Assembly: GCA_030248295.1 (NCBI GenBank)
Contig: JASANH010001401.1
Coordinates: 25,856 to 89,855, forward strand
From: Mesodorylaimus sp. YZB2_4
Lineage: Eukaryota; Nematoda; Enoplea; Dorylaimida; Dorylaimidae
Direction: 5' to 3'
DNA length: 64,000 nucleotides
Numbering within the stretch: the stretch's first letter is position 1; the number at the start of each line of letters is the position of its first letter. This document shows positions 2,432 through 51,157 of the stretch, piece by piece. The notes beneath the pieces are model-generated. The model saw only the letters and a list, made by a program, of their open reading frames with translations, did not search any database and had not been told where the DNA came from. The translations under genes were made by a program, and so were the position numbers.

Positions 2432-5400
2432 TTACAGCTTCTCCAAGATTCCCGTACTCGCATCCAATCTTGCCCTGTCACCTAATGACATACTCTCATG
2501 AGTGCATATCAGTTTTAAAATTGTAACGATTTAATCCATACCCGTTTTGAACAGCTGAGTGGCATTTTGAGCATTGACAATGCAAGGTAAGCCGTACTCA
2601 CGGGCCACCACAGCGCCATGGGACAAAAGACCACCCAGTTCGGTCACGACTCCTGACAACATTGGAAAATAGGGTGACCAGCCGATATCGGTTGAAGTAG
2701 CGATAAGGATTTCGCCAGGCTAAAACAAAAAATTACGGAAATTAGATTCGTGTGATCAAGTATGCCTTGCAATACTTCAGAGTTCGAGGGCATGTCGGTG
2801 GCAGGGCCAAGCAATCTCAGCACATACTGTACCTGCGTATCCTTAGCATCAATCAGCCTTCTAGCAACTCGGACAGGACCTTCCGTGAGTCCTTGCGACA
2901 CTGGCGTGCCTTTAATGACAACCGACGCAGGTGCATGTGCTTTATGAACATTCTGTTCGATCTAAAAAACGTCAGAAATACAACCACAAGGTCCTTCCTG
3001 AAAGGAAATCAGTCTTACAGGTTTGGGTTGTCCAATCATGACCTCTGGATAGTGGTGTGTCTTCAGAATGTGCATAAGCTTACGCCTGCGTACAGCCTTT
3101 GCCACCAATTTAGCTGGCCTCTCTTGAATCAAGTCGGCGATTTCGAGGTGTGACAAGTAAAAAATAAGTTCTGAATCTGGTAGATAGCCCTAAGGTGGTG
3201 ATGATTTCGCATTAGATTCAAATTAATGTGAGATCAGAGTAAGAGACAAACCTGATTTGCTAAAAGTGTTCCTAGCTGGCGATATCCGCCTCGAATTAAA
3301 TCTGTCACTTTAATGGCCACGTTCTAGAAAACAAGACCTAAGGTCTGCTATGTTCTTCTACACGGAATAAGTGGAGCATACTCGTACCTTGGAATGTTCC
3401 CGTCGGACAACCCCAGTTCGGGCAACTGGCACGAAAAATTTCAGCAATTGTCTGAAACAGCGGTTAATCCTAGAATTAGAGCCAAACGCCGCGGCGCGAC
3501 TAACCTTTGAACGAAACCAATACTCTTCAACTTCGCGATGGCTTCTTCCACCGATAGTTCCTCCTTCTTAGTCCACAGTGACTTCTCGTCGCGAAGCATA
3601 GTCTGAAGAAAAAGTCGAGCATGCATCTTTACAAAAACTGGCGGCAATCTTCGACTCACTTGCAACGTAGCAATAAGAGATGTTGGGTCGGACTTCCATG
3701 ACGTAGCCCCAATGTCAATCTAAACCATTCGCTCGGGAGAGATCAGCTGAGAAAAGATATATAAGATGCCTTACTTCGGCGATGCTCCTGTGCCCATGTT
3801 TAGCCAAAAATTCTTGGAACTTTGTACCAGCTTGACCTGATTCAGACCCGTTGAGCCAGTCCATAGCATCGGACGGTTTCATTTCCTGAAACTCTCTGGC
3901 TCGTCCAGCCGTGATAATTGTCTGAGCCAGCTCTTTTATTGCAGCAGGCACATCAGCACTGACGATGTTCTGGCAACTAGAGAACAAGGTGGCTATGTCC
4001 GAGAAGTGGTCCGCTGTGAGCTCTAAAAATATGTTGATACATTCCAGATCGGCAGTTATCAACTCAGCTCACTCAACGCACCTTGATTAGGGTCCCGGGG
4101 AAGTAAGACGGCAGCCACGAAGTTGTAGCCAAAGGAGGAGGCCATACTGTTCCGTAAGTGATAGTACCATACCTAAAAGACGGGCCAGTAGATATGCATT
4201 AAATAAGACATAGCGCTGGCCCGCACCCCAGCTGCCTCCTTCAGGCTCTTTTCGATTTGAGCATAAAGCAACTTCGGATCTTGCACGGCTCCCAAGTCAA
4301 GCTTATAATTTTCAAAGTGATGCGTCTCTTTCTCTTGTATTGATGGCACGATCACAAATGTATTCTAAAATTGATCGTAACCAGATTTGGTTCACCTCGT
4401 AATGTTCGTAGACTTACCCATAGCACGTCAATGAAACGGTAAATTTGAGTAAACACGCTCGGTATGCCAAACCGATCGACGGCCGTCTTCTTGACATCCG
4501 GCCGGTTCAATGGATGGCCCATAAAGCAAATTTCTGGCACTCTCGTATCTTCCATATAGCCGATCTCGCGATAGAAGGTCTAACAATGGTACCATCTTGT
4601 TTGACCATCGCATCTACTGAGGGAGTGCTAGCATCGGGTACGACTTACTTCCATCATGTTGAATAAGGCCCGATTGCAATTTGTGTGAAGCATTGTCCTG
4701 GCGTAGGGATTGATCTCATCGATCCCTCTAGAGGCTCGCATGGCCTAAAACTGCAAAAAGTGAATTGTTCCGACACGATAACAGCTTCAAATGGCTCACG
4801 TGTCCAGAGACTTCAATGGCTGTGACTTGAGTACTCAGTGACAAGGGTGTTTGTGGTTCGGACATGACTTCGCTAAAAAACATCGAATAAAAAACAGCTA
4901 ATTATAATAATTACCATCGCGTACCCGACGTTGGCAGTAGTGTAGCAGTCGTCGTCATTGCGGATGGCGTCATCAAACTCATGCATCAGATCGTACTCAG
5001 TCTCGGTTTCTAGCGACGTTATATCGCGTGCCTTAAACAATATGCTTTCAATTTTGATACTTGTACAGTATCTGGCCCAAGGCCGTGTAGCGGGTAGGTG
5101 TCTGCTTTCATGCAAGGTATAAGCACATGCAGGCGGGTGCTCATGCCGGCCTGCGTTTGATGACGTAACGTTAGCAAAACATGAACACGTGGTGGTCTGT
5201 TTACTCAGATTGTCTTTTCCTTATCGACTGAGCAGCTATCAGATCTTCTGACATTGTCCCATCGTCCTCCTTCTTCAAGCGCCCTCGAGACCTTTGATTG
5301 GAACAGTCGACTTTGCCCCAACCATCACTACCCTACTTATCTACGTAAGATGCCAACTTTTCCTCGCTAGGCGTTATCGTGACGCAATTTTGGCACTCTC

Positions 5401-8400
5401 ACGCGCAAAAACGTTGAGCTTTAAGAATGCTTTTACCAAGTGGGATTACGTTATCAGTCGGAAAGGCCAAATTCAGTGATCCAATTAGCTGAACCAGAGT
5501 GCCCTCTCCGCAAATACACATGTATATAAGCACGGGCGGAATATCGTAATGTCACTGCAACCAAGTCGACCCTCATCCTTACTAACGACATTTTGCTCAA
5601 GTCCACAATGCGTACTGTAGTTCTGGTCTGCCTTGCTCTAGCCTTTCCAGCGTGGTCACTGCCCGTCGAAAACGTGAAGCTATGGAAATCGCCATTTTCG
5701 TTGGGCGGAAGCACAGACCCCGAAATCCAAATGTCACCAGTAAGGTTTGGAGAGGTAGCTTGTCTCGATATGAAGTCAATATATCTCTTAAATTCAGGAC
5801 CAACTTATCGAATACTGGGGCTACCCTGCTGAACAGTACACTGTGGTCACTGACGATGGCTACATCCTACCTCTCTATCGCATCCCACGTGCAAAGGGCG
5901 AAGCACCAAGCACGCAAGCTACCAAGAAGCCAGTCGTGTACCTGCAACACGGTTTGGAGAACAGCGCAGCCGACTGGGTCATCAACTTGCCCAGCGAATC
6001 GGCCGCCTTCGTCTTCGCCGACGCTGGTTTCGACGTGGATTGGAAACTTCCGAGGCACCCTATACAGCGAACACCACACGACCCTTTCGACCAAGGATCA
6101 CCAATTCTGGCAGTTCAGCTGGGACGAAATGGCCAATTACGACTTGCCCGCTTTGCTCAATAAGACCTTGGAAATCAGCGGAGCCAGTCAAGTCTACTAC
6201 GTGGCACACTCCATGGGCACCATTACCGGCTTTGCTCAATTCTCTAACGACAAGGAACTGGCCAAAAAGATCAAGCACTTCTACGCTATGGGACCAGTGC
6301 TGAACATGAGACATGTGCAAGGGCCCGTCAAGATCGGTGCTCCCTTCACCAAATCTGCCAGTTTGGTCGCCTCTAGTAAGTACCGACCTTGTTAGAATCT
6401 TCCTCACACTCATGGCCAATTTTTAGTTCTGGGAGTCGATGAATTCCTGCCAAACTCCAAATTGCAACAAATGGTGGCCAAATATATATGCCCGCAGCCA
6501 CTCACCGACATTCTCTGCCAAAACGTTTTGGTCATGATATCTGGACCGACTGGTCAGATCAACTCCAGCCGAATGCCAGTCATCGATGCTCACAGCCCTG
6601 CTGGCACATCCGTCCAAAATGTTGTTCACTTTGGCCAGATGATCAACAGCGGCCTGTTCCAAGCTTACGACTACGGAAGCGCCAAGGCCAACCGCGCCAA
6701 GTATGGAACCGACCAGCCACCGATTTATGATGTCTCGAAAATGAATATACCCATTTCGATCTACTACGGAGGCAACGACTGGCTGGCCCCAGCATCCGAC
6801 GTTCTCTACGCTATATCGCAGTTCCCGAAAGTAGTCGATTCGTTGTTCTTGCCTGATTTCAATCATATGGACTTCGCCTGGGGCGTCAGGGCTGCTCCTC
6901 AAGTTTATCAACCCATCGTCAAATCCATCAACAACGACTTCAAGGCTTAGAACAAGGGACGATGACAAGCCTAATCGAACGCAGGGTCGATATTCCACAA
7001 AATGTGGAGAATGAGAACAGGGTATTAGTGATAGACGCCATGTGCCTTACGACAAAAATCTTATATTCTTTTGCAAATAAAGTTCATTACTTCTTGATCA
7101 AAGCCCTTGAAACACTCTGCCATTTTGCATGTGAATCTTTTGCTAATGTGCAAAATCATTTCCCTGCGCTATAGTAAGCAAACGGAAGCATAATTGGAAG
7201 AACCTGATATGCCCTCATCTTATCTGGCTCGTACGCATGAGCAGATTAAAAATATATCTCCTTTCTGTTCTTTAAACAACATCTAAAAGGTACTCGTATC
7301 TTACCTGAAGCAAATAAATATTCCCGTTGCGTACAGCCCATTCGATATCTTTCGGCTTTCCATTTGATGCATGCTCAAGCTAAAGAAAAAGCTTTGCAAA
7401 ATTTTCTTTTATTGATAGTGATAGGCTTTTCTGCAGGAATCATTCAAATTCAGGCGCCATTTTTGGAATAGAGACACTATCAAGAGCTTTCTAACCATGA
7501 TGCCAATTTCGCCAAGTTTTATAGCCAGTGCTTGATCCAGGCAACACGACTTGTTTGCTTCATCTGAAAAGTAACAGAGGTCAAACCACAGTCAGCTTCT
7601 TATACCTGCAGTACATGCTTACTCCCGAGCACCACTTTGTTCCAGGATACAGTGTCTTGAAAATAGGATCGATCGAGAGTGATTGTGTCAGGAGTGACAG
7701 CACCACTCACGACAAGCTGCAAGCTTACTGCTCAAGAGAAGAATCGATTCGGTAAACTATGATCTTACTTCTCCCAAACCCGGATTAGCATTAATAATTA
7801 TTTTCAGTGGGTCCCCATCCACTGGGTCCACTGTGAATAAAACTCCGGATACGTCGGACTCTATCATTTCCTGCACTACCACTGAGACTGGATGTGTTAA
7901 TGGTTGGCCGTGCTGTCTAAAGATAAACCGACAGTACTGGGCGGTTCGTTGAGCGATTTCAATTCGAAGTCATACTTGCGATATTGCACAGCAGGCAAGC
8001 GAAATTGTGACGCCCAGCAAAGACGTAGCGCTTCGCAGATCTATAATTCAATTCAATGTTTTTCATCTGCAGATCCTGGTCCTAGCATTTTACTCACATT
8101 CTGCAGTCCCTGGCGATCAAGGTAAGTTTCCAATTGACCAGCCGTAGATAAATCCGAGCTATCTTCACCAACAGCGGACGATCGGACTGCGAATTTCTTG
8201 TCAGTCCAACCAGTCAAAGCGAAGCATCGATTTAATTCGTACTCAATACTTGACTTCAATTTTTTTGAAAGTTCACTTTCGGAAAACAGTTGTTCGATTC
8301 TGAAACGAGTATCGCCCGCGTACAATCTAAGGAAGCAGTGATTATATTATCGCTCACTGTCGGCAAGTAGATTCCAACTGATCAGCTGAGAGCCTGCAAA

Positions 8401-10743
8401 GAGAATCGAGTGAGACTGCTGTCCTTGGCTATATGCTCTTCCGTACTGGCCATAAGTTTCCAGTTCATTCACAAGCTTCTTCAAATTCTCGTTTTCATTA
8501 ATGTGCGCCGTGTAAGCAGCGGTCGTGACACAAAACCCAGAAGGAACGGTGAACTGAAACACGACGTGATTGATCTTTGCATCTGATGAACCTGCTTTAC
8601 TGTACCTCCCCTTGTAGCTGCGATAGATAAGCCAAGTTGCAACCCTTTCCTCCAGTCAAATCGCTTGATGAGGCAGCCCGGTGGCTAAGTGGTAATATAA
8701 AGAGAGAAGCCTCGGCCGAAGTATATTCTAAAAGCATGATGCGAGGATCACAGGTACAAAAGAACTCATGTATGGCGAAACAAAACTACAGTTCCTGCTC
8801 GGGGCTCCTACCTTGTAAAAGGCTCAGTTAGCAATATGTCTTGATATCTAATTTCTTATTGTGAGTCTCTTACTGTTCAAAGTTCATCGAAAACACATGT
8901 TGATGGGATTAACGCAACAAAATTCCTTGCTCCGCCCCCACAGAGCACTATCACTCACTGTATTTAGGCGAGTGATATGGAATTTCAGTATCGATTGACT
9001 GCGGAATCAGCGGCTGGCCTTTCGATGATGACAGTAAATTGAATCCGTATCCACTCAGACCGTTCAGATCAAACTTAGCCAACCTTAGACAGGTCGTTTC
9101 GACAGTCTTATCACCAGTCAATAATAACGGCACTGCTATCTCTTTTTGAGCCCGGAGAAGAAAATGCTTCTTGTCTAAACAAGAACAATATGTTAAATAT
9201 AAGGAAAGAGAGCACTTAAACGTTATCATACCAGACGAGAACGGCAAACAGAGGAGGTCCGACTGCGCACTTGATTGGTCCTCGTAAATCAGATTGCCGT
9301 CAGTGACAGAAGTATATCGACCGCATGGCCAGTTTATGTAGCCGAATCCAAAACTAGAAGTAAATTCGACTATGATCCGTGATGCCATTTGACTGCCAGT
9401 CCAGGCTACCTCTTTAATGTCCCCATAACTTCCATCGACCCCAGAAACATGTAGGTACCGTTCTGAAGAAAAGAATTATACAGCCACGAGCCAAAAAAGA
9501 CGACTTTCCAAATACCTCAAATGCTACGACATGAGCCTCAAGTTTGGACAGCGCGTCCCAAGAGAGGTTAGCTGAAAAAGAAACCGCAGTGTTCTAGCAA
9601 GTGACAGCAAAGGTCGAGAAAGCCCTTACTTGACATGCGCGATTTTAGGCAATGCATCGATATCTCAGAGACCAGTACTTCATCACGATTCACGATCTTC
9701 ATGTCACCAATCAGTTGACCCCATTGGTGCGTGATTCGAGGTTTCGCCCTGCGGGTAAAAAAGGTGGGTACAGACAGGGGACTCAAAAAGGCGTGATCAG
9801 ATTTACCCATTGATCAATTGAAACAGATCTTTAGTCCATAAACTTCGAGCCAATGACTTAGAGAGCATGCTCGGATCATGATCAGTGTCGAATTCAAAAA
9901 GGTCAGTATTCACGTTCCACCTGAAAAGGTGCGATGGCTTTCATCAATTTATTTTACGCATCGTATTCGTAACTGCTTACCATCCATTTATTTTCAAATG
10001 CACCAAAGTCGACTCGTCGTCGTCTGACGCGTTGAAGATGCCTTTCCTAAACTAGCTCGGAATCAAATCATGCAATCCCCAGTTCCACATCTTTGCGCAC
10101 CTAACAGTGGTGCTTATCCAAACTCTCCATTTTCGACAAGGCTCTCGTAATTCGAATCGCAAGCCCTTTCCGACAAACACCCGCTTGTCATTTTTAAACT
10201 TTTTCTGCACTGTGGCTGGATGCTCCGGCAAAGTATAGACCTGATCTTGATAGCGAACTACCAGCCAAACTTCGGTGTGCTCTTGCCTATGGGTAAGTGA
10301 GACAAAGCAAGAATTCCCTTGTTTGTCCATTCCAATGAACTGAATTGAATCCATCTGAAACCCAAACAAGGCCATCCGATGGATAACTTGCAAATAGGGC
10401 GAATCGCCCGCACTTACGCCATTTTCTCCTAGTTCTCTTGGAGAATCCTTCACCCAATCCTCCTCCATTGGCACCATCTTCGAGGCAAAGTTTTCTAAAC
10501 TGCGCCGTTTTCGTTTTAGTGCACATCGCTTTGCGAATTTGGCCAAAAATACAGGATAAGTCAAAGCAAATTTAAACAAATGGACTAGTTTCTCTGAAAA
10601 GTATACTCCGTTACTAAAAAGTCATAAAAACGACACAACACTATCCGACCTGACAAAGCTTTATGTCTCCACAAGGCACTGGCAGAAATCAACTTGCTCA
10701 TTAGCAACGATAAAATCGTCACCAATGTTAGAGTTAGCCACAT
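2432..10743 (-). CDS. Membrane-anchored ATP-dependent dikinase, PEP synthase / rifampin phosphotransferase-like
   Basis: A many-exon gene starts with MWLTLTLVTILSLLM (ATG at 10741-10743), a signal anchor. An N-terminal animal-type region follows (10580-8950). The ATP-binding half reads GGKGCNLAYL (8650), VPSGFCVTTAAY (8540), FAVRSSAVGEDS (8200) and VQEMIESDVSGVLFTVDP (7880). GKPKDIEWAVRNGNIYLLQ (7380-7305) is spliced to ARDITSLETETEYDLMHEFD (5031). A linker domain of several hundred residues (4900-2960) leads to the swivelling phosphohistidine domain with TSTDIGW and TELGGLLSHGAVVARE; the catalytic His codon is at 2618-2620. The last exon ends GDRARLDASTGILEKL before TAA at 2432. No PEP/pyruvate-binding barrel follows, so the domain order matches rifampin phosphotransferase rather than true PEP synthase. 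Family knowledge predicts ATP cleavage to AMP and phosphate with phosphoryl transfer through His; the acceptor is unknown. The exon join near 8660-8950 is unresolved. Confidence 0.88.
5523..5529 (+). promoter_or_regulatory. TATA box of the nested acid lipase gene
   Basis: TATATAA lies 79 bases upstream of the lipase ATG, in an intron of the gene on the other strand. It supports an independent promoter. Confidence 0.55.
5608..6950 (+). CDS. Secreted acid (gastric/lysosomal-type) lipase, with an apparent frameshift
   Basis: The ATG at 5608 begins a signal peptide (MRTVVLVCLALAFPAWS). After a 55-60 bp intron comes the AB-hydrolase lipase signature LIEYWGYPAEQYTVVTDDGY, then LQHGLENSAADW (oxyanion region). 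Downstream are FWQFSWDEMANYDLP, the nucleophile elbow AHSMGT, an intron at 6376-6425, GGNDWLAP (acid residue) and FNHMDFAWG (catalytic His). The triad Ser-Asp-His is therefore present. At about 6035-6038 the reading frame breaks: FDV is followed in the original frame by DWKLP, while the family's expected WIGNFRGTLYSEHH continues in another frame, as if two bases of GTGTGG were lost. Expected activity is hydrolysis of triglycerides or cholesteryl esters in gut or lysosome. The gene lies entirely within an intron of the opposite-strand dikinase gene. It may be a recent pseudogene or carry an assembly error. Confidence 0.85.
7076..7081 (+). promoter_or_regulatory. Polyadenylation signal of the acid lipase gene
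   Basis: AATAAA lies 126 bases after the lipase stop codon and upstream of the next dikinase exon (7305). Confidence 0.6.
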
Positions 10744-13129: not shown

Positions 13130-15828
13130 TCAACAGTAGCAAGCCTGGTCGACGCTGACCAAATCGTAGTGCTGATAATTAGCGCTGTACACGAAATTGG
13201 AACAATCGTTGTTGTACAGTTGTCCCAATAAATGGCACTCGCCCGTTTGGGTGTTCCAATCAAAGCTTCCGCAACCAGATTGCCGCAGGCAAGTCAGTGC
13301 GCAATCGGCATTGGTTAGGTTCTGGATGATTTGCAAAGGCGTGTACGACAAGTAACCATTGTCTGTGAGGGGTGAGAAGCTGCCTGTGTACTTTGGAATG
13401 CAGCCTGAAATATGTACATTGAGGAAAGATGCAGGATAATACCGAGATGCAATGGACCGTGAGTGTACCTGACACGGTTGCTCCAGAAATCCTCGTGGTC
13501 GCCGTTGGCGAAAAAGGATTGCTCTGAGCCATTGCGGGTGAAGGCGATGGGAGCATGGAGGTCAGGGACGAAAAGCTCCCCGTTGGTTGGTTTGTGGGAG
13601 GGAGCGCTGGTGACATCGATCCTAGGAAAAAGAGTGCCTAGCCTAGAGTGTTTGGCACAGCCATGTTGCTGAAACGTTATGGTTTTATCGAGGTAAAACA
13701 CAATATGGAGATATAAAAAGTACGCTTCGACTGCGCTGCGCGGTCGTCAGTAGCTGGCGATGTACTCATGCGTTTTGCTTCAAATAAAGCATTCTGTTTC
13801 AATTCAGAACGCGAAACAACAAATACTTGACGCTTTTGACCTTACCAATTACAGTTGACCCAGTCTGTGCTGAAGCAGGCATTGACGTACCAGTTAGCAT
13901 TGTTTGAGGGACTGATGACTGCGAGTTAACTGCTCCAGTGCTTACGGGTTGGCCCGATGACCCGCTTGTACCTTGCATTGTAGACATAGGTGCAGCAGTT
14001 GAGTCAGTTGTACCTGGAATTAAAGATGTTGGAACTGGAACCGACGAAGCGGATGTGGCGGGTCCGCTTGCGGGTGCTACACCAATCGTAGTAGTCGCGG
14101 GCTGCATAACACTTGCGCCGCTGGTTTCCATCCCACTAGTCGGCGGTGGGGGAGTCATTGTTAGGATTGTGGTGGTCGGCTGATCGGCATCTGTTGTGGC
14201 AGGCATTACTGTCGTGGTAGGCATATCTGGCATGGTAGGAATAGCTGTCGTTGTGGGCATCGCCGCCATTGTGGGCATCGCTGTTGTGGGCATTGCCGTC
14301 GTGGTGGGAATAACCGTGGTGGGCATTGCCGTGATGGGCCTTGTAGTCGTAGGCTCTGCCGTTGTGGTGGGCACAGGTGTATTAGTAGGCGTAGTAGTAG
14401 TGGTGGGTGTCGTAGTCGTGGCAAATGTAGTAGTCACGGTCGTGGTGCTTGTGGTTGTCGTCGTAGTAGCGGGAGAAGCTGAAAGACGAGGGCTGGCTCT
14501 ACTGTAGGAATAGAACACTAGCAAGTCGGAGTGACCTCCAAAACTGTCAGTTACAGCAAAAATGGGAGAAGCTTCTTACTCGGGGTGGGCATATTCAATA
14601 GACAGACCCCGTAGAGGCCTTGATAGCAATCACCCATGTACCAGCAGTAGTCGCCCGACTCGTAGTCTTGCATGACGTTCACGCAGGTGCCAGGCCACGT
14701 CTCGGGATCTCCGGGTTGACCCGGGCACCAAGCCGACCAGTCCGTCGGTTGAAGCACGCTTCCGTCAGACCATTCAAACTGCTGGGTCGCTGTATTGTAG
14801 GAGAGTCCGAACCACGCACTTGCCAATTGTGAACCGATGTAGCTGACGAGAGGAAATGCTTGGCTAGATCTCTTAACAATTATTCAGATTACATAACACT
14901 CACTATTCGGCATATTTCCAGACCCATTCCTCTTTGGCGAAGAGCACGTGGCTGTTGTTAGCAGCGCAGCTGGCCACAGCATCCTCGTACGAAACTGGAT
15001 CTTGACTGTATTTCATGCACTGACCACCCCAGGCGGTAAAACCGGGAGGGCAGGCTAAATATCGTAAAAAGCCATGGATAAGCGGTTCAAAGGACAGTTT
15101 CGTTCACTTACTGACGTCAGCGAAAGATGGAAAGGTGTATGGGGTACCTGCAACAACCGATATTCAGTCCTTGCTTAAAAGATAACTGGATGCAATTAAC
15201 TAACCCGTTCCAATAGTCGTAGTCTGTGCTTTCACACAGACTGGCGCCAAGGTTGTGCCACACGAAACCGCGAACCAGGCCAAGGTCTTCAACCTGATAT
15301 CATACTTGATAGAAACGCATGCTCCAGAGTTCATGTTTGGTTGATTAGTGCCCCAGGGCGCCCAATCAACGCCGGGGGTATACGTGGTGCCATCGGCCCA
15401 GCTCCAGACCTGAGTGGGCGCGTCATAGTGTAGTCCCATCCAAATACTGGTCAACTGTTGCTGAGGGAGGTTCCTAAAGAGTTGGTCTTTTCGATGGTCT
15501 GTTTTTGTAATAGCCCAAATATGAGTGCCTTACTGTACGATCATCTCCCAGTCACTCTGCTTTTTTACAAAAAAGAGGGTGGCGTTGTCTTGAGCGCACG
15601 TGTCCATGGCGTTTTGCCACGGCATCTTGCTCGTACTCACCATCGCACACTGACCAGCCATGGAGTTGTACCCTGGCGGGCACTGGCCTGAAAAGTAGTG
15701 AAAGGACTGCCACGACCGAATTCATATTTCGTGGTTAGCTTACCGGCGCACAGCTGAAATTCAAGAAACAGGATAATCAGCCATTTTTGGAATCCTACGA
15801 AAAATCGTAAGTTATATGCGCCAAGCAT
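13130..15828 (-). CDS. Secreted double C-type lectin with mucin linker and PAN domain, copy B
   Basis: This is the fullest copy. The ATG at 15826-15828 opens a signal peptide (MLGAYNLRFFVGFQKWLIIL...CAG). Lectin domain 1 is QCPPGYNSMAGQCAMV (exon about 15690-15530) joined to SIWMGLHYDAPTQVWSWADG and WAPWGTNQPN (15455-15200). Lectin domain 2 is first coded around 15055-14900 (CPPGFTAWGGQCMKY), then FGLSYNTATQQFEWSDG, QPGDPETWPGTC and CWYMGDCYQG (14830-14580). A Thr/Pro/Met-repeat mucin exon runs 14490-13850, and a second S/T/P-rich exon lies at about 13621-13492. The PAN domain exon (13405-13130) begins GCIPKYTGSFSPLTDNGYL, contains C...CLRQSGCGSFDW and ends ACYC then stop. The architecture suggests a secreted cuticle, gut or immune surface protein; the ligand is unknown. 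Confidence 0.88.
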
Positions 15829-18232: not shown

Positions 18233-20211
18233 TCAGAGATAGCATTTATTATCGACATTGATCAGATCGAAATGTTCATAGTTAGGATTAGGGATGAAAT
18301 TGGTAAGTCCACCCGTAGCCTGTTTACCCAGGAGACGACATTCACCCGATTGCGCGTTCCAATCAAACCCGTGGCATTCGTTTCGCTTCAAGCAGGCTGC
18401 AGCGCAACTGCCGTCAGTGCGGTTGTTCAAAATACTGACGGGAGTGAAATCAAAGTAGCCATTCTGTGAGTGTGGCAGGAAGCTACCAGTTCTTGTGGGT
18501 TGACAGTCTGAAAAGTCAGGAAAATTTTATGCGCAATCGGAGCTGACGAGAGAATCGATCAACTGAAAGCCGAGTTACGCGATGCCAATAATAGGCAAAT
18601 CCGAGCATGATTGTGAGTCATCTACTCTGGCAAAAAATTCTCCCGTTTCCATGTTTATCGATTCCCTCATGAGTCTGCAGTCGTAATACCGACAGACGCG
18701 TCCATCTTAATCGGAGAAAAATAGAACATCGGTAGTTTAAAGGTAACCGACAGGCCTTTAGATGGAAGCATTGGGCTCGGAGATGACGGTGTGGATGCAC
18801 TGAAGTCTGAAGGAAACCAAACCCGTAACAATATGATGCATGTCACAATGAGATCTTACTCGGACGTGTCGACGTAGATGTGGGCCTAGCAGTCGACGCG
18901 GAAGTTGGCTTGGGGGTCTGTCCAGATGTGGGGGTTACTCGAGACGCGGTAGTGTGTGGGGATGAAAGTGTGTAAGGAGCTGATGGCTTAGCAGACGCTG
19001 TTGGAAGGACTGATGATGGCAGAAGTGAATTGTGGGTCCTGGTAGAGCCGATGCTAGGACGCGATGATAAAGTAGAACTTGGTGTCACAGTTGAACGGGA
19101 CGTGACAGTGCCTAAACAAAGATTTTTGCCTATCAGCGGCCTCTTTCCATGTTAGAATTAGTACCTGAACTCGAACTTGTTACTGGGCTTGAGGACGTCG
19201 GCAGTAACTTAATCGTCGTGCTGGTCGAACTCACTGATCTCGAGGGAGATGCCGTGGCAGAAGGCGATGGAACTGCTGGCGCTTTGCTGGTTGGCCCAGG
19301 CGCAATCGTGCTTGGGAATTTCGTCGTAGATCGGCGTGTGCTGGAAGAGCGACCTGAACTGGAGCTTCTAGTCGTCGAGGGGTGCGTGCTCTGAGTCCTC
19401 GTGCTCACCGACGATGATTTGGTCGAGGTACTGGTGGCCATGGCGGGTGGGAGAGTACTAAGTGTGGACGACGCTGCAATAAGATGAAATGTCCTCTGTC
19501 TAGCACCAATGGGCAAAAAAACGACTTGTATACCTGTACTGAACACACAAATACTGACTGTTGGCTTACTGCAATCAGCCATGTACCAACAAAATTTCCC
19601 AGCTTCTGTTTGTTTTACCCTCACACAATATCCGGATGATTGGTCTGGTGTTACGACATCGGATGAACACCAAGCTGACCAATCGCTCGATTGATTGAAG
19701 ACGCTTCCATCAGCCCATTCAAATTGTGTGGTAATTTTGTTGTAACTCAAACCTACCCAGACATCGTACGTCATAACCATGGAATTTACACTGTAATAAC
19801 AAGTCTTAGTTTCAAAAAACGTGCCAGGTTACAAGGGCATACCAGGAAAAATACTCCCATTTCTCGGCATCTTTGGCAAAAACGATCTGCCCGCTCACGT
19901 CAGCGCATTGTTTCTTTGCGGTGTCGTAATCCTGCTTGATACTTTTATTGCAGTACATGCAACTGGTGCCGCTTACTGTAAACGGATGTGTGCATCCTGC
20001 GCGAACAGTACAATGGCAAGATAGCCCTCGGCACAAGTCAGAAGTTCACCTACTTATACTGGGAGCGTTCGGATCAACTCTTGACACAACGCATCCTGAA
20101 GACAATTATTTTCCATGGATCCAACACTACGAAGGATGAAGTAGGCAATGCTTACTCACCTTGGTCTGCTGGAAAAAGAGTGGCTGCTAGAAGAAATGAG
20201 AAGAACAACAT
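18233..20211 (-). CDS. Secreted single C-type lectin with mucin linker and PAN domain, copy D
   Basis: A hydrophobic leader (MLFFSFLLAATLFPADQ) starts at the ATG at 20209-20211. An in-frame ATG at 20272-20274 would add about 21 polar residues, and I prefer the inner start because it gives a clean signal peptide. Only one lectin domain is present: CTHPFTVSGTSCMYCNKS (about 19995-19850) then YDVWVGLSYNKITTQFEWAD, SAWCSSDV and CWYMADCSK (19775-19540). Ser/Thr-rich mucin exons cover about 19475-19160, 19115-18860 and 18800-18700. The PAN exon (18507-18233) carries GSFLPHSQNGYFDF, CAAACLKRNECHGFDW and NKCYL stop. The lectin most resembles domain 2 of its neighbours, so copy D has lost (or never had) domain 1. 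Confidence 0.82.
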
Positions 20212-50640: not shown

Positions 50641-50797
50641 ATCGAGGTAAATCGTGAGTCCTGACAAAAAAGTGAGTGAAAGAAGAATTTATTTTGACTA
50701 TCGAGCTTACAAAAGTATTCAAAACTACCCCGTCCATTCAGCTCGACTGTTGGTCTCATTTTCAGCTGCAGACAGACGACAAAACCAGGGTGTAGTC

Positions 50798-50883
50798 ACC
50801 CGTGGAGGGGGTCGAACCCTCGACCTTTGGATTTCATCTCCATATATAGAAGTCCAACGCGCTATCCACTGCGCCACACGGGT
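50798..50883 (-). tRNA. tRNA-Arg (UCU anticodon) with a 14-base intron
   Basis: The minus strand gives acceptor stem ACCCGTG paired with CACGGGT, D arm GGCGCAGTGGATAGCGC, anticodon stem TTGGA/TCCAA with loop CTTCTAA, and T arm with GGGTTCGACCCC. A 14-base intron follows position 37, where tRNA-Arg(UCU) introns sit in animals. CCA is not encoded. All four stems are intact, so the gene looks functional. Confidence 0.92.
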
Positions 50884-51157
50884 ACTTCCTCTGTCTACTT
50901 TAATCTCAAGCCAGCCAGACTCAGACAAGACGTGCGGATCGCACGTTAATGAGCCACAGCTGAGCAAACCTGTTGAAAATCGCTATGATACTTTTTGAAT
51001 ATCTGCCCCTGATCCGCATCGACGTTACCAAACTGCTCTTGAGCCTTTTAGCCTTATAAGTGTCACATCGCACGATGGGTGTTTTAACGAGTGTATGACA
51101 GGCAGATGGACTGTGAGAGTAGATACGGATAGTAAGCTGCCCGCACACTGCCCACGA

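Follow-up and report, generated by a model that had tools for sequence, protein, structure and literature searches.

A nematode gene that reads most simply as a fusion of a bacterial dikinase gene with its phosphosteroid-lyase-like neighbour

What a gene built from bacterial-type phosphotransferase domains does in a nematode, and where its additional N-terminal region came from, are the questions raised by a locus of Mesodorylaimus sp. YZB2_4. The locus was analysed within a stretch of 64,000 nucleotides, here called the window (contig JASANH010001401.1, positions 25,856 to 89,855; coordinates below are those of the window). The gene occupies 2432..10743 on the minus strand and was modelled from the genomic sequence alone, its exons being joined by eye with open frames, splice sites and motifs of the family as guides. 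Its 33 exons give a single frame of 3915 nt, from the ATG at 10743 to the TAA at 2432, encoding a protein of 1304 amino acids (aa) that consists, in order, of an N-terminal domain, an ATP-grasp domain, a middle domain and a phosphohistidine swivel domain, after which it stops. We regard it as moderately probable that this protein is the fused descendant of a bacterial kinase-lyase pair, acting as a dikinase of lipophilic alcohols whose N-terminal domain presents the substrate.

With an ATP-grasp and a phosphohistidine swivel domain in one chain, the protein belongs to the superfamily of small-molecule dikinases resembling rifampin phosphotransferase (RPH) and phosphoenolpyruvate (PEP) synthase. 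Pfam PPDK_N was matched at aa 446-744 (E 1.1e-62) and PEP-utilizers at aa 1229-1299 (E 2.1e-21), both above cut-off, and the third match at E up to 1 was MltA alone (E 0.24, below cut-off). All of the coding blocks lie on the minus strand: exons 11-18 (7305..8727) encode the ATP-grasp domain as far as the residues YLLQ, exons 19-30 (3019..5031) its end, beginning with ARDIT, together with the middle domain and R1101, E1102 and K1105, and exons 31-33 (2432..2961) the swivel domain with H1263, followed by the stop codon. With the last exon the swivel domain is complete (FKTG|DRARLDASTGILEKL), and the end of the protein resembles the ends of its bacterial relatives. The RPH-like domain order given in a preliminary description of this DNA is borne out, and the anatomy is as secure as a model chained by eye from genomic sequence can be.

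The best sequence matches in the PDB were 5hv1, 5hv2 and 5fbs (E about 2e-73), all deposited as phosphoenolpyruvate synthase; we take 5hv1 and 5hv2 to be RPH. In an alignment with the RPH copy of L. marthii (locus L019), which is one residue shorter than the numbered Listeria RPH and agrees with it at all 23 reference letters, each of the ten catalytic or ATP-site residues compared was identical (K22, R117, T136, E297, Q309, R311, R666, E667, K670 and H825), Q309 and R311 presumably being ATP-site or phosphotransfer residues of RPH, in keeping with the kinship with RPH proposed for the ATP-grasp and His parts. Structure 5fbs is the RPH of Listeria, and the roles of the other eight residues are described for that enzyme, in which an E297A variant is still active, so that E297 is not essential there (PMC4844700). 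None of the 13 rifampin-site residues was kept (Q336, Q337, Y351, T354, P356, A357, M359, V368, L387, L478, F479, T523 and M673), several of them falling in a gappy region of the alignment. The phosphoryl-transfer machinery therefore looks intact, and the protein is probably a working dikinase whose acceptor is neither rifampin nor pyruvate. Orthology with RPH was rejected because the acceptor site is not kept.

Profile searches bear on the possibility that the gene encodes a true PEP synthase, the label that similar animal genes carry. The best NCBIfam profiles do carry the name phosphoenolpyruvate synthase, but they score 372 bits against a cut-off of 945 and 261 against 740, the swivel domain stands at the C-terminus, and no PEP/pyruvate barrel was found by Pfam scan in the 1304-aa protein or in three downstream minus-strand open reading frames (ORFs), two of which are C-type lectins and one of which had no match. 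Finding no barrel, we rejected this assignment and give it almost no credence. The preliminary description had held that the protein stops after the swivel domain and acts on some other small molecule, and both points agree with these results. It had also proposed comparison with the RPH, PigC and PEP synthase families; models named for all three do match, including RPH (317 bits, cut-off 999) and PigC (304, cut-off 1300), as does RedH (279, cut-off 1350), but every row shown lies below its cut-off.

The N-terminal domain (exons 2-10, 8959..10593, minus strand, aa ~86-425) was resolved through bacteria. At least 54 bacterial loci were matched by the swivel domain, and when the whole window protein was compared by phmmer with the ORFs of the 54 listed, it hit the dikinases and also ORFs immediately upstream of them (L011 and L013; window aa 88-256, 30 bits). 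An ORF of this type, about 340-400 aa from stop to stop and here called the N gene, has the dikinase as its immediate downstream neighbour in 16 of the 54 loci listed (L003-L007, L009-L014, L039, L041, L045, L047 and L051), which amount to 15 independent loci since L011 and L013 are near-identical. The other 38 have no N gene directly upstream, some loci being cut by contig ends. A profile of 13 of the 16 bacterial N-proteins, from which the window was excluded, matched the window at aa 86-257 with an E of 7.1e-14; the remainder of the domain, to about aa 425, was placed by alignment only.

In a class-wide search with the N-profile, 5 of 247 genomes were matched and all five have a dikinase adjacent downstream, one being L013 and two (G568 and G582) lying outside the 54 loci. 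The N gene was otherwise rare in the genomes searched (1 of 296, 1 of 52, 1 of 296 and 0 of 5, the sole match in each of the first three being the genome at the centre of the search); it was present in 4 of 10 genomes reached through the loci, and in all 10 of a set picked for holding it. Five bacterial N-proteins scanned in Pfam all matched DUF7064 (four above cut-off), four matched DUF7065 (one above), and all five matched the NCBIfam Rv3169 family far below its cut-off. With the Pfam DUF7065 and DUF7064 models, no match at an E of 1 or less was obtained in the protein of the window. On the match to the bacteria-only profile (E 7.1e-14), the window's N-terminal domain can be assigned to this 25-phosphosteroid-lyase-like DUF7065/DUF7064 family. 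The preliminary description had called the N-terminal region not bacterial, and this is contradicted by the profile match and by the 16 loci in which the N gene adjoins a dikinase; its suggestion of bacterial kinship for the gene as a whole is upheld by the same match and by the grouping of the operon dikinases with the window, described below.

Several further observations were made on the bacterial loci. In L002 (Bacteroidales) an N-type gene lies at 8231-9421, about 2.9 kb downstream of the dikinase rather than directly upstream, and in L048 the N gene appears only as a weak match. Three Bacteroidota loci (L039 1185-1961, L047 1111-1959, which is from Bizionia arctica, and L051 135-947) have, immediately before the N gene, an ORF that by eye looks like a tyrosine phosphatase (NFRD.GG..T..G..), a hint of an operon of kinase, lyase and phosphatase. 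We considered whether the bacterial N-proteins might begin with an amphipathic membrane helix and rejected the idea, as 0 of 17 bacterial rows and 0 of 4 window segments exceeded shuffled sequences at 5% in hydrophobic moment. No relative of the whole spliced protein was found in the genome scan (6 pattern matches), and none was found in viral contigs by alignment of the N-domain (42 pattern matches) or of the swivel domain (197).

The fold of the N-terminal domain was approached through the bacterial N-protein of L013, which was modelled with AlphaFold2 from a 17-row alignment in place of the spliced nematode protein, with a mean predicted local distance difference test score (pLDDT) of 92.1. 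The top solved structures matched by Foldseek were five chains of 25-phosphosteroid lyase (25-PSL; best E 1.7e-13), and the bacterial N-profile also matches the 25-PSL sequence (E 4.2e-4 for the whole sequence), which has RDRSWGVR against the RDHS[WFY]GxR of the N-proteins. Deposited 25-PSL sequences differ from D to N at this motif, 9g4c carrying the N, and this suggests that an Asp of functional importance was mutated for that reason. As described in PMC8449060, 25-PSL works in tandem with 25-hydroxysteroid kinase (25-HSK), a tertiary alcohol being phosphorylated and the phosphate then removed to leave an alkene, an ATP-dependent dehydration. The same dehydration is covered in PMC11061730, and the lyase is termed putative in the relevant passages of both papers, structures having come later. 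Since the published chemistry is to phosphorylate an alcohol and eliminate the phosphate, it suggests that the ancestry of the nematode protein may include an ATP-driven dehydratase.

The window has HCLKSR at the position of the bacterial RDHSxG, with HCLKSRMSTNLSW in place of RDHSxGxRxW, and by eye no other reading frame at the site supplies the motif. In some arthropod copies a motif resembling RDHSFG may be retained. Because RDHSxG is absent, the lyase step was probably lost from this copy; its N-terminal domain may instead bind or present substrate, and phosphorylation of a lipophilic alcohol would therefore be the likeliest remaining activity. A bifunctional ATP-driven dehydratase in this species too, in which the dikinase phosphorylates and the N-terminal domain eliminates to give an alkene, would follow the kinase-lyase logic of 25-HSK and 25-PSL and would suit the bacterial gene pair, but the HCLKSR replacement, together with the apparent importance of the motif Asp, makes it distinctly improbable.

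DUF7064 genes were also found beside kinases of another kind. In 30 genomes of another bacterial order, 89 DUF7064 hits, some below the Pfam cut-off, included at least 8 that are directly followed, on the same strand, by an APH-type kinase domain, which starts 179-203 nt past the DUF7064 domain, against 0.33 expected from the same listed APH set (150 APH hits of a longer list). At least 9 further same-strand downstream APH pairs lie at 1.5-3 kb, 3 of the 9 sharing an APH with the first 8, and two DUF7064 genes adjoin a stand-alone swivel-domain gene (among the 7 listed swivel hits compared). Mycobacterial Rv3168-Rv3169 is described as an operon in PMC5340868, and Rv3168 as a putative APH in PMC3691515. 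Such pairing of DUF7064 with differing kinases fits a module that would phosphorylate and then eliminate. In L077 (1205-4900) and L078 (1359-4974) the same cluster was seen, made up of DUF7064, a HAD-like ORF (by eye), a stand-alone swivel ORF of 146 or 156 aa and an ORF of about 480-495 aa; this is possibly a split dikinase system.

The relationship of the nematode dikinase to those of the bacterial pairs was examined in two trees. The first, built on full-length sequences, had 49 rows, made up of the window and 47 of the 54 loci, L049 being entered twice; it was rooted only at the midpoint and left out rows shorter than 780 aa or covered over fewer than 650 aa, such as L006. In it the window grouped with 15 operon dikinases, L001 and L002 with support of 100/100. 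The same set formed a clade (96/89) in a two-domain tree of 53 rows with PEP synthase as outgroup. Both trees were flagged for long branches and uneven composition, and in both the window falls outside the clade that holds Listeria RPH. Since the window groups with the operon dikinases and also shares their N-domain, the simplest reading, which is well supported, is that the animal gene arose by fusion of the two operon genes; the fusion would be old enough for 32 introns to have been gained.

From the domains, the kept residues, the bacterial gene neighbourhood and the fusion in the model, which come from the data, we infer the reaction, the lipophilic acceptor, the loss of the lyase step and the site at a membrane. 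The C-terminal ~860 residues would form a three-domain dikinase of the RPH/PEP-synthase superfamily, in which ATP would phosphorylate the swivel residue H1263, AMP and phosphate being set free. The domain carrying H1263 would then move to the middle domain, where R1101, E1102 and K1105 would help to pass the phosphate to the acceptor hydroxyl. The N-terminal domain would be a lipocalin-like relative of 25-PSL; in bacteria the N-protein probably takes over the phospho-ester made by the neighbouring dikinase and turns it into an alkene by eliminating phosphate, an ATP-driven dehydration, and in the animal copy lacking RDHSxG the domain may bind a greasy alcohol or offer it, perhaps at a membrane, to the dikinase for phosphorylation. 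More tentatively, and with the balance of probability against it, animals may carry a line of one-polypeptide ATP-driven alcohol dehydratases derived from the fused bacterial dikinase-lyase operon, the dikinase making a phosphate ester of a tertiary or allylic isoprenoid or sterol alcohol and the lipocalin-like domain eliminating the phosphate; this species would then have dropped the lyase step and kept a phosphorylating, ligand-presenting version at the membrane.

A number of observations weigh against descent from a fused kinase-lyase pair. The bacterial profile covers only aa 86-257 of the window's N-terminal domain, which keeps 11 of the 27 columns invariant across 17 bacterial N-proteins, and the dikinase motif has ARDIT where the family has ARPIT. 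Structurally the lyase is a moderate match (template modelling (TM) scores of 0.56-0.59, root-mean-square deviation 7.6-8.3 A, 11-12% identity), and it is followed by matches to kievitone hydratase, the pericyclases Fsa2 and Phm7, and AttH (TM about 0.42-0.53), the last being described as lipocalin-like (PMC2954199); the ancestral N-protein therefore need not have been a lyase. In the profile match to the lyase no individual stretch is significant alone. For Sterolibacterium, the account in PMC8449060 places no candidate for the lyase in the vicinity of the 25-hydroxysteroid kinase gene, so that gene pairing is not a rule there, and most of the 89 DUF7064 hits have no kinase neighbour among the APH matches listed. 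In the full-length tree a 99/98 branch parts the other 17 operon-side rows from the window, and in the two-domain tree the operon clade contains neither the rows nearest to the window by path nor the row of best identity to it (L035, 41%). The branch of the window is long in both trees (1.77 and 2.11), and because of this its exact position is uncertain.

Whether the model itself joins what belongs together was judged from its introns. All 32 have GT-AG ends, their median length is 58 nt, and G+C is 0.467 in exons against 0.446 in introns. Only one intron exceeds 250 nt, that of 2.27 kb at 5032..7304 (minus strand), which separates the ATP-grasp exons from the remaining exons and contains a lipase gene on the plus strand. 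Exon 18 ends with DIEWAVRNGNIYLLQ at 7305 and exon 19 starts with ARDITSLETE at 5031, in a phase-0 junction. The family motif Q-x-R-x-I-T is thus cut exactly at this intron and rebuilt by splicing of exons 18 and 19, and the phmmer alignment to 5hv1 spans the junction (query 433-734). Because of the split motif and the match that crosses the junction, an artefact in which the ATP and His halves belong to separate genes is unlikely, and it was rejected on account of the split motif; the possibility raised in the preliminary description, that the halves are never joined, is answered by the letters. In its wider form, as two separate genes or a decaying pseudogene, this alternative draws on the opposite-strand lipase gene between the halves and on the gene being modelled from genomic sequence alone, but given the clean motif split, the frame open across 33 exons and the catalytic residues kept wherever compared, we think it very improbable. 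The soft spots of the model are two introns: that of 63 nt separating exon 2 from exon 3, which is in frame and could be retained, and that of 120 nt separating exon 12 from exon 13, which has a weak donor and is the least certain.

Exon 1 (10650..10743, minus strand, aa 1-31) encodes a hydrophobic N-terminus by hydropathy, with a Kyte-Doolittle maximum of 1.85 (19-residue window) within aa 1-21 followed by basic residues. An A-x-A-like cleavage site, SASA/LW, is also present by eye, and the segment could equally be an anchor or a cleavable signal. Of the membrane anchor proposed in the preliminary description, the hydrophobic segment stands, and the anchor itself is one of two equally compatible readings. 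Anchoring in a membrane is possible, and by the positive-inside rule an uncleaved N-terminus would place the kinase on the cytosolic side.

Many more animal entries in the databases are labelled phosphoenolpyruvate synthase than the few found in print. Among the literature matches listed, the reports considered concern Ixodes, bdelloid rotifers and Sarcophaga, which is no proof that others are absent from print, and a search for tardigrades together with phosphoenolpyruvate synthase gave no match. A eubacterial form of phosphoenolpyruvate synthase is reported from bdelloid rotifers, and a product so labelled is listed in a report on the flesh-fly (Sarcophaga) pupal brain. In the midgut of Ixodes ricinus, contig IrSigP-110295, annotated as phosphoenolpyruvate synthase, shows a fold change of 451 for partially fed relative to fully engorged animals and is tabled with lipases and a sulfotransferase, in a study that used SignalP to collect some of its frames (PMC5099782). 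Judged by its annotation, this contig is likely to be homologous to the window gene.

The tick contig can be cited in favour of a plain RPH-like phosphotransferase that detoxifies xenobiotics, with the N-terminal domain as a solubility or membrane module only, a reading that would also suit a protein in which the dikinase residues are kept and the lyase motif is lost. We nevertheless think it unlikely: the contig was compared by annotation rather than by sequence, not one of the 13 residues of the rifampin site is retained (a count that leaves room for other xenobiotics), and the pairing of the genes in bacteria speaks for a dedicated substrate. Under descent from a fused kinase-lyase pair, the bacterial pair and its lyase-like partner would give a testable substrate class, lipophilic and probably isoprenoid or sterol-like alcohols; bacteria would have assembled a kinase-lyase dehydration module from more than one kind of kinase, and an animal would carry it in fused form. 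If the arthropod labels mark relatives, and if the window gene is typical of them, the label phosphoenolpyruvate synthase would be misleading.

The gene nested in the large intron (5608..6950, plus strand) is an alpha/beta-hydrolase resembling acid lipases, in which Pfam Abhydrolase_1 matches two ORFs, one above and one below cut-off. By eye its frame appears to shift near 6045, and it is either a recent pseudogene or an assembly error. Five minus-strand C-type lectin ORFs flank the dikinase gene (543-1013, 1337-1663, 14551-14883, 15200-15529 and 19133-19828), some of them adjoined by Ser/Thr-rich stretches. The window also holds C-type lectin, SPRY, Pfam-Lipase and Ras-family pieces, which fits animal DNA, and a tRNA-like gene of about 90 bases at 50795-50884 (minus strand; Rfam tRNA, 59.9 bits) to which ARAGORN assigns no amino acid.

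Among known systems, RPH of Listeria (5FBS) has the same ATP-grasp, middle and C-terminal swivel domains, no barrel and all ten compared residues, whereas the window protein has an extra N-terminal domain, none of the 13 rifampin-site residues, a place in another clade and 317 bits where 999 are called for. PEP synthase and PPDK share the ATP-grasp and swivel domains but have another domain order and a barrel that was not found here, and PigC and RedH have similar ATP-grasp and swivel domains, with scores (304 and 279 bits) far below their cut-offs of 1300 and 1350. With 25-PSL (9FZN, 9G2I and 9G4C) the likeness lies in the best fold match of the bacterial N-protein and in a weak profile match with an RD-SWG motif; the window's domain lacks the motif, and the partner kinase of 25-PSL is described as a 40-kDa phosphotransferase, not a dikinase (PMC8449060). 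The operon dikinases (about 790-830 aa, 16 loci) share with the window a clade, the motifs TDIGW[ST]PY, HGHR and N[VI]GE and a partner protein homologous to its N-terminal domain; nine aligned operon dikinases lack about 40 ATP-grasp residues that the window and RPH have, and the two genes of the operon systems are one in the nematode.

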